Origin: Ruminococcaceae bacterium BL-6
GTDB taxonomy: Bacteria; Bacillota; Clostridia; Oscillospirales; Acutalibacteraceae
Direction of reading: 5' to 3'
Length of the DNA stretch: 64,000 nucleotides
Assembly: GCA_902810075.1 (NCBI GenBank)
Contig: LR778135.1
Span: 1,798,001 to 1,862,000 of the forward strand
Of the stretch, positions 25,239-55,137 are shown piece by piece. The notes below the pieces were generated by a model. That model did not search any database, was not told the DNA's origin, and was given only the letters and a program-made list of their open reading frames with translations. How positions within the stretch are numbered: the first letter of the stretch is position 1; the number at the start of each line of letters is the position of its first letter. The translations under genes were made by a program, and so were the position numbers.

Positions 25239-26420
25239 TCATTCAAAAAACTTTTTTAATTGTTCCGCTTTATCCGTCTTTTCCCACGAAACGCCCAGGT
25301 CCTCGCGGCCCATATGGCCGTAAGCCGCAAGACGGCGGTAGATCGGTTTCCTCAGATCCAGGTCACGGATGATCGCGGTGGGACGAAGGTCGAACACCCT
25401 TTTCACCGCTTCCGCAATCCTGTCCTCGGGGAAGCCGGAAGTCCCGAACGTATCGACCATGACGGAAACGGGACGCGCGACGCCGATGGCGTAGGCAAGC
25501 TGTACCTCGCATTTTCTGGCAAGGCCGGCCGCCACAATATTCTTCGCCACATAGCGCGCCGCATAGGCTGCGGAACGGTCCACCTTGGTTGGGTCTTTGC
25601 CGGAAAAGGAGCCGCCGCCGTGCCTTCCGTATCCGCCGTAGGTATCGACGATAATCTTGCGCCCGGTCAGCCCGCTGTCGCCAACGGGGCCGCCCACCAC
25701 AAAGCGGCCGGTCGGATTGATGAAATATCTGGTCTTATCGTCGAGAAGCTCCGCTGGCACGACAGGCCCGACCACATGCTTCAGAAGGTCGCTGCGGATC
25801 TGTTCCAGCGTGGCCTGCGGGTCGTGCTGGGTGGAAATCACGATGGTATCGACCCGGACCGGCCTGTCGCCGTCGTATTCCACCGTCACCTGCGTTTTTC
25901 CATCCGGACGCAGATACGGCAGCGTTCCGTTTTTGCGCACGGCGGCAAGCTGCTTTGCAAGGCTGTGCGCGAGCGAGATCGTCAGCGGCATCAGGGTCTT
26001 GGTTTCGTCGCACGCATAGCCGAACATCATGCCCTGGTCGCCCGCGCCGATTTTATCGTTTTCCTCGGTGGCTCCGTTTCTCGCCTCAAAGGATTCGTTG
26101 ACGCCCATCGCGATATCGGGCGACTGGACGTCGATGGAAGTGATGACTCCGCAGGTGTTCCCATCGAATCCATAGGCGGGGTTGTTATAGCCGATATCGC
26201 GGACCACTCCGCGCGCAATGGCGGGAATATCGACATAGCACTCGGTGGAGATTTCCCCCATCACATGGATCAGGCCGGTTGTAGCCGTCACCTCGCAGGC
26301 CACATGCGCCCGCGGGTCCAGGGCGAGAATCTCATCCAGGACCGCATCGGCAATCTGATCGCAGACTTTATCGGGATGGCCTTCCGTGACCGATTCCGAC
26401 GTAAAAAAATGTTTTGCCAT
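25239..26420 (-). CDS. metK: S-adenosylmethionine synthetase
   Basis: A 393-residue methionine adenosyltransferase, making SAM from methionine and ATP. The family motifs are intact: [20 protein letters not shown] near the N terminus, [16 protein letters not shown] in the middle, and [27 protein letters not shown] for the active-site loop. The GGAGGAATCAAGA before the ATG at 26420 supports the start. It is monocistronic and under a SAM-I riboswitch with a terminator, so SAM excess shuts it off. An extended -10 promoter lies above the riboswitch. Confidence 0.97.
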
Positions 26421-26442
26421 TCTTGATTCCTCCATAAACTGA

Positions 26443-26481: not shown

Positions 26482-26487
26482 GAACAA

Positions 26488-26590
26488 CCTCATCTATCGG
26501 CATCTACCGCAGGAATTGGCACCTTGCACCCGAAGCGCAGGTTGTCGGACATCATCGGGCCTGTTCCCTCCGTCACTCTTGATAAGGACT
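26488..26590 (-). ncRNA. SAM-I (S-box) riboswitch
   Basis: On the minus strand the S-box order is visible: CTTATCAAGAG (26576-26586), GGAGGGA, GGCCCGATGATGTCCGACAACC, then GGTGCCAATTCCTGC. When SAM binds, the terminator at 26443-26481 forms and metK is not transcribed. The sequence and the gene both agree on this assignment. Confidence 0.92.
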
Positions 26591-26609
26591 TATTCAATTG
26601 TTATGGCCT

Positions 26610-26623
26610 ATTATACCACAGGC
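26610..26623 (-). promoter_or_regulatory. Extended -10 promoter for the SAM riboswitch-metK transcript
   Basis: On the minus strand TGG-TATAAT (26610-26618) is an extended -10 motif, starting RNA about 10 bases before the riboswitch. There is no good -35 box. The -10 lies in the arm of a hairpin (ATACCACA/TTGTGGTAT, 26613-26643). Confidence 0.55.
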
Positions 26624-26643
26624 GCAACGCGCCGTTGTGGTAT
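26613..26643. repeat. Inverted repeat overlapping the metK promoter
   Basis: ATACCACA (26613-26620) and TTGTGGTAT (26635-26643) pair, with a GCGC inner stem and an AAC loop. The right side on the minus strand carries the extended -10 box. It could be an operator or part of the decayed repeat next to it. Confidence 0.5.
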
Positions 26644-26664
26644 ATTCTATCAATTGGCGAAGCT

Positions 26665-26695
26665 GGTATCATAGCCGTCTTGCGGCTATGATACC
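26665..26695. repeat. Perfect 12-bp inverted repeat upstream of metK
   Basis: GGTATCATAGCC (26665-26676) and GGCTATGATACC (26684-26695) are exact complements around a 7-base loop. Its GGTATCATAGCC arm on the minus strand aligns with the GCTATAATAACC block of the 126-bp repeat found at 53.6-54.0 kb. Confidence 0.7.
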
Positions 26696-26699
26696 ATGA

Positions 26700-26815
26700 T
26701 GGTAAGGAAAAGCAACCACCCTTGATACGATAAAGCTTCCAAACGCACAACTTATCATGGTTCTACGTTCTCAGGTGATTCTTCTTCGCTTACGCCGTGA
26801 GAATATTATAGCATC
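26700..26815 (-). repeat. Decayed copy of the 126-bp intergenic repeat, in the metK leader
   Basis: This stretch matches the 53602-54029 repeat in the same order: AAAGCTTCC, a CGCA block, TTATCATG, GTTCT, CTTCGCTTACGCCGT and ATTATAGCAT. Identity is partial with small gaps. It contains TATAAT on the minus strand at about 26806-26811, in the same place as in the intact copies. The flanking TGGTATCATAGCC block continues the alignment into a second degraded unit, so the leader appears to be built of old tandem copies. Confidence 0.65.
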
Positions 26816-26860
26816 CTTTTCCAGAAAAGCCAAGTAAAAATATAAATTTAGTAAAATTGG

Positions 26861-27433
26861 TCAGATCGGACGGATCATCTCTCTGTGCCTCTGAACAAAA
26901 GGCAGAAGAGCCCGGAAAACGATCCCGGCAATTGCGCTGTTGAGCCCCGCCTTAATCAGGTTGAACGGGATAATGCCGGGGAGCATGATCGCATCCACAA
27001 CCGACTTCGGGGTCCCGAAAAAGTAGACGGTAAAAATGTAATTCATCGGGATCATGGCCGCCGTCATGGCAAGGGAGCCGAGGACCATCCCGACCACCAT
27101 ATCGGAAAACTTATGTCTGCGCTTATAGAATTCCCCGGCCAGAACGACCAGAAGGCCGGAAGCCACCACATGCATCAGAAGGCCGACCCAGCCGTTCCCG
27201 CCGAACAAAAAAGCCTGAATCACGGAAACGATAAAGAGGATGGACACGGCAGGCATCGTGCCGAACAGCATTGCGGCGATCAGAATCGGCGCGTCGGCCA
27301 TATCGTATTCCAGGAACGGCGCCGCGGGCACCAGCGGAATGCGGACAAAGGCGATCAGCACAAGGGAGACTGCGGCAAGCATCGCCAGCTGGGCCATCTG
27401 GATGACCCTGTTTTTCGACATACTGTTTTTCAC
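26861..27433 (-). CDS. ribU: ECF transporter riboflavin-specificity component
   Basis: A 190-residue membrane S component of an energy-coupling factor transporter. It has about six hydrophobic segments and a family-typical helix 1 block (RVIQMAQLAMLAAVSLVLIAFVRIP) followed by EYDMADAPILIAAMLFG, the usual substrate-proximal region of RibU. The FMN riboswitch upstream makes riboflavin the likely substrate; this is inference from regulation plus family. The GTG at 27433 follows AAGGAG at the normal spacing. EcfA/T genes are not nearby and are presumably shared. A regulated terminator precedes the gene. Confidence 0.88.
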   Translation of the reverse strand: MKNSMSKNRVIQMAQLAMLAAVSLVLIAFVRIPLVPAAPFLEYDMADAPILIAAMLFGTMPAVSILFIVSVIQAFLFGGNGWVGLLMHVVASGLLVVLAGEFYKRRHKFSDMVVGMVLGSLAMTAAMIPMNYIFTVYFFGTPKSVVDAIMLPGIIPFNLIKAGLNSAIAGIVFRALLPFVQRHREMIRPI

Positions 27434-27464
27434 GGGAAAGCACTCCTTTTTTCTGCTGCCAACG

Positions 27465-27494
27465 AAAAAAGTCCCACAGCAGGCGCTGTGGGAC
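27465..27494 (-). terminator. Riboswitch-controlled terminator of ribU
   Basis: On the minus strand GTCCCACAGC-GCCT-GCTGTGGGAC is followed by TTTTTT. It lies between the FMN riboswitch and the ribU start and is the expression platform. Confidence 0.9.
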
Positions 27495-27518
27495 GGAATC
27501 ACGCAAAGATGCGCAGGT

Positions 27519-27638
27519 CTTCTTTCATCCGGACTGTACCGTCGGCTTTGGGATCTCACCAAAATCTGCATATGCTCGCGGGCTCGCCGGCTCTGAGCCG
27601 GATTACCGCCGGTGGGGAATCTCACCCCGCCCCGAAGA
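27519..27638 (-). ncRNA. FMN riboswitch (RFN element)
   Basis: On the minus strand the RFN order is present: GGGGCGGGGTGAGATTCCCC, ACCGGCGGTAATCC, a GGCTCAGAGCCGGCGAGCC arm, GGTGAGATCCCAAAGCCGAC, then GGTACAGTCCGGATGAAAGA. FMN binding favours the terminator that follows, lowering riboflavin uptake when FMN is plentiful. Confidence 0.93.
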
Positions 27639-27695
27639 CAGCTTATTAAATTTTTAACATTTTTATTATATTCCGCTTTTCCGGAATTGTCAAGG

Positions 27696-52203: not shown

Positions 52204-53286
52204 TTACTCCTGTTTTTCGATTGTCTGTTCCAGCTTTTTCGCCCTGTCCGCCGTGATCAGGGCGTCGATCAGCTCGTCAAGGTCCCCGTCCAGCACATCC
52301 GCCAGGCGGTAGAGCGTCAGCCCGATCCGGTGGTCGGTCACGCGGCCCTGCGGGAAATTGTAGGTGCGGATCCGTTCGGAACGGTCGCCCGTGCCCACCT
52401 GGGAACGGCGCTCGGCCGCGACCTTTTCATCCTGCTCCCGCTGCTTCGCCTCGTACAGGCGCGAACGCAGAACCTTCATCGCCTTGTCCTTGTTTTTATA
52501 CTGGCTCCGCTCATCCTGACATTCCACCACCGTGCCGGTCGGCAGGTGGGTGATGCGGATGGCGGATTCTGTCTTATTGATGTGCTGGCCGCCCGCGCCG
52601 CTGGAGCGGTATGTGTCGATCTGCAGGTCGGAGGGGTTGATCTCGATTTCCACGTCGTCTACTTCGGGCAGGACCGCCACCGTCGCGGTGGACGTATGGA
52701 TGCGCCCCTGCGTTTCCGTTTCCGGCACGCGCTGGACGCGGTGGACGCCGCTTTCGTATTTCAGGCGGGAATACGCGCCCTCGCCGGTAATCATAAAGCT
52801 GATTTCCTTATAGCCGCCGAGCTCCGTTTCATTCGCGTTCAGAATTTCGGACTTCCAGTTTTTCAGCCCGGCGTACATGCTGTACATGCGGAACAGACGC
52901 GCCGAAAAAAGCGCCGCCTCTTCCCCGCCCGCGCCCGCGCGGATCTCCACGATCACGTTGCGCTCGTCGTTTGGGTCGCGCGGCAGCAGAAGGACCTTCA
53001 GTTCCTCCGCGGAGCGCTCCTTTTTTCCCCTGGCCTGCTCCAGCTCCTGCTGAACCATTTCCTTCAGCTCGCGGTCCAGCCCGTTTTCCCCCAGCATTTC
53101 CTGCGCGTCTTTCTCGGCCTTTCCGGCCGCAAGGTATTCGCGGTACTTTGCGACGATGGGCTCCAGATTCTTATATTCCTTCATGATTCGCGCATACGAT
53201 TCCGGATCCGAGACGACGGACGGATCGTACATGCGCTGATTCAGCTCTTCCAGCCGTTTTTCAAATACAGTCAGATTTTCAAACAT
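52204..53286 (-). CDS. prfA: Peptide chain release factor 1
   Basis: A 360-residue RF1 that reads UAA and UAG and releases peptides. The catalytic GGQ lies in [17 protein letters not shown], and the [29 protein letters not shown] block is typical of RF1. It is normal length. It precedes sua5 and follows DUF951 by 48 bases, on the same strand, suggesting that the promoter at 54021-54049 drives both. The conserved GGQ glutamine is normally methylated by PrmC, whose gene is not in the window. Confidence 0.96.
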
Positions 53287-53334
53287 TCGGTTACCACCCT
53301 GTCAGATTTTCTATGATTTTGAAAATCCGGGCGG

Positions 53335-53532
53335 CTACAACTCATCCTGAACGTTTTCCCGTATGATTTTTTTGATGTTTTTCTCGCATTTCAGCCTAGG
53401 CACCATCACCTCGTGCCCGCAGCCCCTGCAGCGGATCTTGAAATCCATCCCGGAGCGGAGCACAAGGAATTCCCGGCTGCCGCACGGATGCGGCTTTTTC
53501 ATCAGCAATATGTCACCCGGACGGACATCCAT
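53335..53532 (-). CDS. DUF951 family protein
   Basis: A 65-residue protein of unknown function. It has the conserved DUF951 pattern: DVRPGDILLMKKPHPCGS, LRSGMDFKIRCRGCGHEVMVPR. Three cysteines plus a histidine suggest zinc binding, but that is inference. The start at 53532 (MDVRPGD) is backed by GGGGGAAGG and by the family N terminus; an upstream in-frame extension is not supported. It is the first gene after the tandem repeat region and probably lies in the prfA operon. Confidence 0.9.
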   Translation of the reverse strand: MDVRPGDILLMKKPHPCGSREFLVLRSGMDFKIRCRGCGHEVMVPRLKCEKNIKKIIRENVQDEL

Positions 53533-53601
53533 GAAAGCCTTCCCCCGTTTCCTTCTGAAATTCCGACGCGCCGTGTGAATCCAACCGCGCACATGCTCTC
53601 T

Positions 53602-54029
53602 CAGGCGTCGGAAGCTTCGCTTCCGGCTTACGCCGTAAGGTTATTATAGCATGATGCAAAGCAGAAAAACTATTTCAACACGGCAAAGCTTCCGAGCACG
53701 CAAAGCTTATCATGCTTCAATGTTCTTTCAGGCGTCGGAAGCTTCGCCTCCGCTTACGCCGTAAGGTTATTATAGCATGATGCAAAGCAGAAAAACTATT
53801 TCGACACGGCAAAGCTTCCGAGCACGCAAAGCTTATCATGCTTCAATGTTCTTTCAGGCGTCGGAGGCTTCGCCTCCGCTTACGCCGTAAGGTTATTATA
53901 GCATGATGCAAAGCAGAAAAACTATTTCGACACGGCAAAGCTTCCGAGCACGCAAAGCTTATCATGCTTCAATGTTCTTTCAGGCGTCGGAGGCTTCGCC
54001 TCCGCTTACGCCGTAAGGTTATTATAGCA
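53602..54029. repeat. Tandem array of near-identical 126-bp units with promoter boxes
   Basis: Three full units (53602-53728, 53729-53854, 53855-53980) and a 49-base partial (53981-54029) repeat head to tail. Units 2 and 3 differ at one base; unit 1 differs by a few bases and one extra base. Each has a GGAGGC-TTC-GCCTCC-type hairpin, a CTTAC-GCC-GTAAG hairpin and ATTATA, giving TATAAT on the minus strand in the same position. The array lies in the leader of DUF951/prfA. There is no open reading frame. A CRISPR is excluded by the 126-bp period and lack of spacers. Recent copying, and so copy-number variation, is likely. Confidence 0.9.
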
Positions 54030-54049
54030 CAAAATCAGAGAAGTCCCAA
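54021..54049 (-). promoter_or_regulatory. Promoter at the head of the tandem repeat array, facing DUF951-prfA
   Basis: On the minus strand TTGGGA (54044-54049), 17 bases, then TATAAT (54021-54026). The -10 lies at the edge of the partial fourth unit, and the -35 lies in unique sequence. Other units have the -10 only, with a weak -35. Confidence 0.6.
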
Positions 54050-54086
54050 TGTTTTTCAAAAATTCCTCCGTTTTTCGCCGTGCCGC

Positions 54087-54116
54087 TTGCTTCCGGGCAG
54101 CGAAACGGTCTATAAT
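54087..54116 (+). promoter_or_regulatory. Sigma-A promoter of birA
   Basis: TTGCTT (54087-54092), 18 bases, then TATAAT (54111-54116). It places the start of transcription about 30 bases ahead of the GTG at 54154. Confidence 0.55.
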
Positions 54117-54153
54117 GGAAAAAGAGTTTAACGTTAAATGGAGAGATGTCATC

Positions 54154-55137
54154 GTGAAAAAGGATGAGATTCTGGAATATCTGAAAAAAAGCGGGGATTA
54201 CGTTTCGGGCGAGGACCTGAGCAAAAAGCTTGGGATTTCCCGGTCGGCGGTCTGGAAAAACATCAACAGCCTGCGGGAAAGCGGGTATGTGATCGAATCG
54301 GTCACAAACCGGGGCTATCGGCTCGCGGATACCTCGGACGTGCTGAACGAACGGGAAATTTCCGCCGGCCTGAAAACAAAGGTTTTCGGGAAAAAGCTGA
54401 CCGTTTTCCCCGAGATCGACTCCACGAACGAAGAGGCGAAGCGCCAGGCCCTGAAAGGGGCCGAGCACGGCAGCGTCTATGTCGCGGATCAGCAGCTCGG
54501 CGGAAAGGGGCGCCTCGGCAGGGTATGGTCCTCCCCGCCGAAAACGGGGCTCTGGTTTACGGTCCTTCTGCGCCCCGACGCCGCGCCGATGCAGGTGTCG
54601 AACCTTACGCTGCTCGCGGGCCTTGCCGTCTGCCGCGCCATCCGCTCCCTGACCGGCAGCGAGGCGATGATCAAATGGCCGAACGACATCGTCATCGGAA
54701 GCCGAAAGGTGTGCGGAATTCTCACCGAAATGACAGCGGAGGCCGACCGCGTCCATTTCGCCGTGGTGGGGATCGGCGTGAACGTCAACAACAAGGAGTT
54801 TTCCGAAGAGCTCGCCGTAAAGGCCACTTCGCTCCGGATGGAGACCGGCTCCCCCGTTTCCCGCGTCGCTCTGCTGCAGGGAATCCTGCCGGAATTTGAA
54901 GCCCTTTACAACGAATATTTCATCGACGGAAACGAGGACTGGCTGAAATCCTACAAGAAAGTCTGCGTTTCGCTCAACCACAGAGTCGGCGCGGAGCGAA
55001 GCGGCGGCAGGGTGACCGGGATGGCGACGGACATCACCCGGGGCGGACAGCTCGTGGTGAAGTGCGACGACGGCAGCCGGATCGAGATCAATTCCGGCGA
55101 GGTGATCGTTCAGGGTATTTACGGACAGACCTGCTGA
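54154..55137 (+). CDS. birA: Bifunctional biotin ligase and biotin operon repressor
   Basis: A 327-residue BirA of the DNA-binding class. The N-terminal winged helix (GDYVSGEDLSKKLGISRSAVWKNINSLRESGY) is joined to a biotin ligase domain with the GGKGRLGRVWSSPPKTGLW loop (biotinyl-AMP), IKWPNDIVIGSRKVCGILTEM and a C-terminal SH3-like cap. It joins biotin to carrier proteins and may repress biotin genes. The start is GTG at 54154, eight bases after GGAGAG and below the promoter; upstream in-frame starts are at or before the -10 box. It is transcribed alone. Confidence 0.94.
   Translation: MKKDEILEYLKKSGDYVSGEDLSKKLGISRSAVWKNINSLRESGYVIESVTNRGYRLADTSDVLNEREISAGLKTKVFGKKLTVFPEIDSTNEEAKRQALKGAEHGSVYVADQQLGGKGRLGRVWSSPPKTGLWFTVLLRPDAAPMQVSNLTLLAGLAVCRAIRSLTGSEAMIKWPNDIVIGSRKVCGILTEMTAEADRVHFAVVGIGVNVNNKEFSEELAVKATSLRMETGSPVSRVALLQGILPEFEALYNEYFIDGNEDWLKSYKKVCVSLNHRVGAERSGGRVTGMATDITRGGQLVVKCDDGSRIEINSGEVIVQGIYGQTC

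Follow-up and report, generated by a model that had tools for sequence, protein, structure and literature searches.

The window, a 64,000-nucleotide stretch of the genome of Ruminococcaceae bacterium BL-6, carries on its minus strand a gene for a DUF951 protein followed by prfA, which encodes peptide chain release factor 1, and, on the far side of their leader, a divergent gene for a biotin-protein ligase of the BirA type (Table 1). The leader contains a single tandem array, placed by Tandem Repeats Finder at 53593-54029 with a period of 126, 3.5 copies, 98% matches and a score of 823. Three 126-bp units and a last core are arranged on the minus strand and directed toward DUF951-prfA; in the frame used for comparing them (AACC...TATAAT, minus strand), each unit consists of a core (AACCTTACGGCG...ATTG), a linker and a TATAAT box.

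A sequence-only reading of this DNA had described the array as three full units and one partial, with TATAAT boxes on the strand that reads toward DUF951 and prfA. The array is real, its partial unit is a diverged last core, and four minus-strand boxes were located, starting at 54026, 53900, 53774 and 53648; the single base said to separate units 2 and 3 holds in the plus-strand frame of that reading. Its assignment of the only good -35 box to the outermost TATAAT, in unique sequence, is borne out by a promoter scan, in which TTGGGA, a 17-nt spacer and a TG ahead of the box give 10 of 12 matches. Two weaker minus-strand promoter sites (9/12, with 0.9 sites expected from shuffles) lie elsewhere than at a TATAAT, one of them inside the array (53678-53651). 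Where two hairpins per unit had been proposed, the core forms a strong one (-21 kcal/mol, z -4.28), but the linker, although its arms pair, is no stabler than shuffled sequence (z -1.05, with 29 of 200 shuffles at least as good). A site scan found no minus-strand terminator-like site inside the array. The likely start of the DUF951 gene is the ATG at 53532, favoured by ORF scoring over an upstream GTG at 53592, and the plus-strand TATAAT at 54111, ahead of the biotin-protein ligase gene, has no element on it.

Table 1. Positions of the repeat units, promoter boxes, genes and riboswitch discussed in the text.
Feature	Position	Strand	Basis or remark
-35 box TTGGGA, DUF951-prfA promoter	54044..54049	-	in unique sequence
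Outermost extended -10 box TGC-TATAAT, left element edge	54021..54029	-	promoter scan and sequence
Unit 1, 126 bp	53895..54020	-	covariance model, 90.6 bits
Unit 1, core hairpin	53970..54020	-	
Unit 1, linker	53901..53969	-	
Unit 1, right-end TATAAT	53895..53900	-	
Unit 2, same sequence as unit 1	53769..53894	-	covariance model, 90.6 bits
Unit 3, two bases off units 1 and 2	53643..53768	-	covariance model, 88.4 bits
Last partial copy: diverged core, without linker or closing TATAAT	53590..53642	-	covariance model, 67 bits
DUF951 protein, 65 aa, first gene past the array	53335..53532	-	Pfam PF06107, E 3.4e-27
prfA, peptide chain release factor 1	52204..53286	-	PF03462 and PF00472
Divergent biotin-protein ligase, BirA type	54154..55137	+	PF03099, PF08279
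metK promoter TTGGCT-17-TATAAT, left edge of decayed family-1 copy	26805..26833	-	sequence
Decayed family-1 copy, metK leader, ends ATCATGG-TATCAT	26688..26813	-	sequence and weak covariance match
Family-2 element at the right-end box (now TATCAT) of the family-1 copy	26610..26687	-	sequence
metK SAM riboswitch	26487..26588	-	Rfam RF00162, 78 bits
metK	25239..26435	-	

A dispersed repeat and its position on promoters

The unit of the prfA leader is not local, because a genome-wide search, which the sequence-only reading had proposed with the 126-bp unit, returns 56 matches in its own genome for the array sequence (a 428-bp query). A pattern for the core hairpin that contains no TATAAT gives 88 hits there, against 2 with a reversed control pattern. 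These cores, here termed family 1, group into 44 clusters (same strand, less than 200 nt apart); some of them are perhaps chance matches, and at least one chance cluster (L134) is probably among the 44.

With the same TATAAT-free pattern in this genome (G000), a TATAAT lies at most 24 nt upstream of 39 of the 44 outermost hairpins and of 25 of 44 inner ones, leaving five outermost hairpins without a box. The box is preceded by TG in 35 of the 38 outermost copies that have both a tail and a TATAAT. A wider set, comprising 106 outermost and 79 inner copies after repeated contexts were dropped, and including a few outermost copies that are spurious regular-expression matches, retains TATAAT in 100 of the former and 43 of the latter; this set is biased, its named loci having been retrieved by a pattern that itself contains TATAAT. 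A -35 box matching at four or more of six positions accompanies 33 of the 100 outermost copies with TATAAT (12.6 in shuffles) and 12 of the 79 inner copies (9.5), and a TTG at 17-nt spacing is found at 18 of 100 (2.4) and 4 of 79 (2.0), respectively, so that the -35 excess in the wider set is clear at outermost copies only. The contrast is weaker within G000 alone, because the outermost copies there reach a modest 11 of 35 against 4.3 in shuffles and the inner ones 7 of 27 against 3.6.

With genes called by a codon-scored model, 38 of the 40 sites that pass the core filter are followed by a co-directional gene (a 41st cluster, a false core inside a gene, was left out). The exceptions are L007, where the next gene is on the opposite strand, and L126, where no gene was called; the L030 site is separated from its next gene by 1309 nt. 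The downstream genes, judged by their N-terminal sequences, include DUF951-prfA, ruvC, gltX, fba, ldh, nusB, trigger factor, ksgA, folE and others (with DUF951, prfA, ruvC, gltX and fba confirmed by Pfam), and no common function was seen among them.

Beyond this genome, a BLAST search of 60 relatives recovered the unit in each of the four genomes compared from the genus (G000-G003) and in one of 56 others, where a 23-bp match looks like chance. A pattern scan of named genomes yielded 55 stretches, in carriers that include Clostridium sporosphaeroides, Faecalispora jeddahensis, Clostridium minihomine, Anaeromassilibacillus senegalensis and Clostridium sp. D33t1. A search with a covariance model built from 69 cores, in which at most 26 candidates per genome were scored under strict filters that lose weak matches, detects family 1 in 30 of 200 genomes (25 of 135 genera), patchily within the taxonomic family. 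G213, G155 and G137 are among the genomes with high copy numbers. Many copies in scattered genera fit the spread, or the loss, of a mobile element. The element had no match in plasmid and phage collections, and a single IMG/VR contig matches it. Rfam, at gathering score, reported the SAM and FMN riboswitches alone in the 64-kb window, with nothing for the repeat core, and nothing in ten carrier loci; TLS-PK1, with two hits at E<=1 over 53200-54300, was set aside as chance-level and far below threshold. Among the titles and abstracts listed none describes this palindrome family, which is no proof that a description is lacking.

Stem, linker and element ends

RNAalifold folds the core alignment into 14 pairs, 10 of which show compensatory changes. 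The proportion of paired cells in this stem is 96.6%, as against 83.3% in shuffles and 32-45% when the structure is slid along the alignment, and cells with double changes number 121 against 35 in shuffles, both measured on a structure drawn from the same alignment, which favours that structure. The paired region includes the CTC ahead of the predicted start, with just two double changes there.

Linker sequences differ between genomes. In readable linkers the ends close as N'CA...TGN, and N can pair with N' in 28 of the 32 inner copies that retain TATAAT and AA; the boxes at inner junctions often deviate from TATAAT (TATAGAT, TTTAAAT, TTGAAT). Matched ends are calculated at -5.5 kcal/mol in inner copies, against -3.0 when the ends are swapped, and at -2.4 against -2.0 in outermost copies, where the difference is small. 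The tail of the core, ATTGAAN'CA, comes close to being the complement of TGN-TATAAT. At outermost cores its N' agrees with the flank base N in 34 of 74 cases (20 expected), which is only a hint of guided targeting because related sites are not independent. By eye, the left end, AACCTCAC, does not match the right end of the element; the linker arms form an inverted repeat, imperfect, that takes in the TATAAT.

Several loci depart from this plan. In the source genome, a 3' module beginning G/A-TGAGCGCTCCGCG... replaces the usual linker in L030, L125, L126, L128, L129, L136, L137 and L139; the G/A-TGAGCGCTCC tail was considered as a possible larger element and rejected, as the eight cases have just about 40 bp in common, except for L030 and L126, which share the whole of the 260 nt compared past the core (and so at least that length). 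In G137 the core apparently lies within a longer repeated cassette (L234, L237, L238, L240-L242 and L245-L247), with a common TTGAC promoter region upstream and, in several loci, gtaggggcagacc-type sequence downstream. Between L172 and L313 the core stem is altered at several paired positions, and some 50 nt ahead of the box have diverged, all between flanks otherwise 90-99% identical; this pattern suggests conversion or very fast stem evolution.

Filled and empty promoters, and a second palindrome

The gltX promoter of G000 reads TTTGG-TATAAT, followed by a 124-bp unit and then by TATAAT-AAAAATAAGC, whereas a single TATAAT and no unit are found in the leaders of G001, G002, G003, G028, G213 and G152 (6/6). 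Fourteen genomes were searched for this promoter and seven leaders compared, G137 being without a clear promoter and the other seven giving low-identity hits. At fba, G000 has one 125-bp unit between two TATAAT boxes, and the unit is absent from the 260 nt compared in all seven others (G001, G002, G003, G028, G213, G152 and G137); the promoter aligns well with that of G000 up to TATAAT in G003 and G001, and loosely in G028 and G002. The fba box of G001 carries a different palindrome (family 2, below), and the same box in G003 is empty. The extended -10 usually predates the insertion, because a TG already stands one base ahead of TATAAT in the empty boxes (6/6 gltX and 4/7 fba promoters). Gain in G000 would be a simpler account than loss in the relatives; the TATAAT at both ends of the unit could be either a 6-bp duplication or a copy borne by the element.

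All four species compared from the genus carry the element at the prfA promoter, with species-specific linkers and one to about four cores (a single core each in G001 and G003, three or more in G002). Where G000 has the -35 box TTGGGA, the orthologous promoters of G001-G003 read ATGGGA. At another locus, two identical units and a third core in G001 face one core in G003, between flanks 99% and 90% identical by BLAST, and the remaining core differs by paired stem changes. Copy number, which the sequence-only reading suggested could vary and tune the expression of release factor 1, does vary between species. Flank matches among those listed suggest that several other sites are common to the genus (the base-by-base comparison covers prfA), and because prfA and these sites are shared, movement would not be frequent.

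Other promoters are less clear. No alignable empty promoter was found at nusB, which was dropped as a third empty site. The ruvC promoter is filled in G000 and G152, without the element in G003 and G028, and accompanied by other repeats in G001 and G002, which leaves it ambiguous as an empty-site case; an array at ruvC is also found in A. senegalensis (flank match L003-L070). A comparison of L159 of G003 with G001 was dropped, the two flanks matching separate places about 15 kb apart.

Family 2 is a palindrome of the form TGGTATAAT-AGCCG...CGGCTATTATACCA-GCTTCGCCAATT...GGCGCGTTGCGCCTG-TGGTATAAT, unrelated in sequence to family 1. In nine contexts its right end is TATAAT in six, and its left box is TATAAT in three and TATCAT in three; two copies at fba in G001 and one in L136 are imperfect on the right. 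Such palindromes were noted at or adjoining -10-like boxes in L328, L022, L028, L130, L136 and L255. Family 2 adjoins family 1 in L022, in L028 (where the chain order is 2-1-2) and in the window itself, where the metK leader (26487-26833, minus strand) holds two nested palindromes of different families between its -35/-10 boxes and a SAM riboswitch. The family-1 copy there gives a weak covariance hit (26758-26813, 25.2 bits, E 0.0016), the family-2 copy ends in TGG-TATAAT (26610-26618), and the riboswitch begins about 15 nt past the start that spacing alone would predict for that right-end -10. This order is the one that would be expected from successive landings on the newest -10 box. In the same region, an FMN riboswitch (27513-27643, minus strand) overlaps the start of a called ORF (26861-27625); the real start of this ORF probably lies downstream of the called one.

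Origin of the arrays and comparison with known repeats

The prfA array probably consists of stacked tandem copies of a small palindrome, mobile but non-autonomous, which takes the extended -10 box (TRTGN-TATAAT) of a working promoter as its landing site. The sequences show a dispersed element with a promoter TATAAT as its left edge, the -35 box still present, and, at gltX and fba, a second TATAAT as its right edge; relatives lack the unit at the same promoters. The prfA array is an exception to this two-box pattern, in that its last copy is truncated and has no closing TATAAT.

On such a model, transcription from the old -35/-10 boxes would now pass through the element as a structured leader, and the right-end TGN-TATAAT could initiate transcription anew close to where it began before the insertion, so that an essential gene might survive the hit. 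The next copy could in turn land on that right end, itself a TGN-TATAAT, which would account for tandem stacks in the same orientation; slippage or unequal exchange could then alter the number of units. The stem-loops, kept by compensatory changes, may serve movement as folded single strands, and are more likely to be needed for this than for the regulation of one pathway.

The origin that the sequence-only reading had favoured, in-place duplication of a local promoter-proximal segment, would account for the identity of units 1 and 2, and because of that identity recent local duplication may have added to the number of units. As the source of the unit itself, it is already contradicted, since the same unit occurs in 44 clusters against different and unrelated promoters, and whole units present in G000 are missing from the same promoters (gltX, fba) in relatives; this explanation now has hardly any credence. 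A conserved regulatory leader RNA, similar to a riboswitch, attenuator or antiterminator and serving a regulon that includes prfA, would begin at promoters and show strong stem covariation, as the element does, and might be expected from the occupation of prfA in four of four species and the ruvC arrays of G152 and A. senegalensis. Against it stand the unrelated functions of the downstream genes, the orthologous promoters without the element, linkers that vary between genomes, pairing that includes the CTC upstream of the predicted start (with its few double changes), a core without an Rfam match at gathering score and an array without a terminator-like site on its strand, and it is accordingly regarded as improbable.

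Of greater weight, yet still unlikely, is the view that the element is a conventional MITE: a DDE transposase would move it and leave a short (TA-type) target duplication, TATAAT would be no more than a favoured AT-rich target, and purifying selection would spare only the intergenic copies. The element is indeed non-coding and about 125 bp long, the imperfect inverted repeat of its linker arms includes TATAAT, and its inserts of 124-125 bp have TATAAT at both ends. Survivorship alone, however, would yield intergenic spread in both orientations, as opposed to the observed preference for TATAAT and for the direction of the next gene; terminal inverted repeats of the whole element were not seen by eye, and the loci examined gave no partner IS. 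A spacing scan of these loci recognised no autonomous copy or related IS: beyond 130 nt it met one exact end (L059, at 300 nt, in a locus containing N) and otherwise matches with one mismatch, and for 177 of 294 cores no end at all. The remaining candidate, a REP-like palindrome mobilised by an IS200/IS605 (Y1) or RAYT enzyme and inserted as a single strand 3' of a TATAAT target, is suggested by the hairpin architecture, the directional insertion, the lack of clear inverted ends and the eleven equal-scoring IS200-like Y1 transposase genes of G000. PF01797 (Y1), however, matches in 7 of 12 carrier genomes (two of them weakly) and in 2 of 12 non-carriers, and gives no hit in the other five carriers (G002, G003, G133, G137 and G152), all of which have many copies. 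A Y1 transposase as general partner was rejected, as its distribution does not follow the element, and this route is considered very improbable.

Family 1 shares with MITEs its short length, its non-coding, dispersed and non-autonomous character, and its empty orthologous sites. REP/BIME palindromes with RAYT, and the palindromes of IS200/IS605, are palindromic, intergenic and tandem or paired. Family 1 resembles both in being palindromic, intergenic and tandem, and differs from both in having no consistent Y1 partner gene and in landing on a promoter box. Correia elements are marked by Neisserial sequence, a TA target and an IHF site. Published descriptions present them as MITE-sized, often just 5' of genes and bearing sigma-70-like promoters, with one immediately downstream of the mtrCDE promoter (PMC10969869); compared by description alone, family 1 is likewise MITE-sized and upstream of genes, and is set apart by the -10 box as landing site, TATAAT at both ends and tandem stacks. 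The BOX elements of Streptococcus pneumoniae are described as small, modular, hairpin-forming and dispersed, with few clear links to gene function, a middle module that is absent or present in several copies, and over-representation between convergent genes (PMC3049150). At the level of such descriptions family 1 shares all of these properties except the last: it abuts a -10 box, and its next gene is co-directional at 38 of 40 sites. BrickBuilt, a MITE of Porphyromonas gingivalis, is reported as dispersed and intergenic; its tandem repeats can lengthen or shorten, it acts as a promoter in E. coli, and it has terminal inverted repeats like those of IS5-family elements and a 23-nt minisatellite (PMC4596501). 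Family 1 is similarly dispersed, intergenic, MITE-like and tandemly repeated, but apparently targets the -10 box, which the description consulted does not mention for BrickBuilt. Family 1 behaves like these small palindromic repeats (MITE, BOX, Correia, BrickBuilt); it is filed under none of them because its two ends do not match by eye, its terminal TATAAT boxes fit either a target duplication or an element-borne copy, and no Y1 gene accompanies it consistently. What sets it apart is its landing on the -10 box; the small repeats compared lie mostly in neutral intergenic DNA or bring their own promoter.

More tentatively, at least two sequence-unrelated palindrome families may home on extended -10 boxes in these Clostridia, as instances of a general promoter-homing, promoter-sparing mode of spread; this wider reading is possible but doubtful. 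The -10 box would perhaps be targeted as the melted, single-stranded DNA of the open complex, the tail ATTGAAN'CA might guide the choice of target, and the far-end TGN-TATAAT would tend to be rebuilt, so that essential promoters would be invaded, stacked and chained and not lost. If the element does select a -10 box and leave one at each end, this would explain the spread of selfish DNA through essential promoters (prfA, gltX, fba, metK and ruvC); many leaders would have been lengthened by structured RNA, and two start sites per gene would be possible. Sister species provide pairs of filled and empty promoters, and the landing sequence is defined to the single base.
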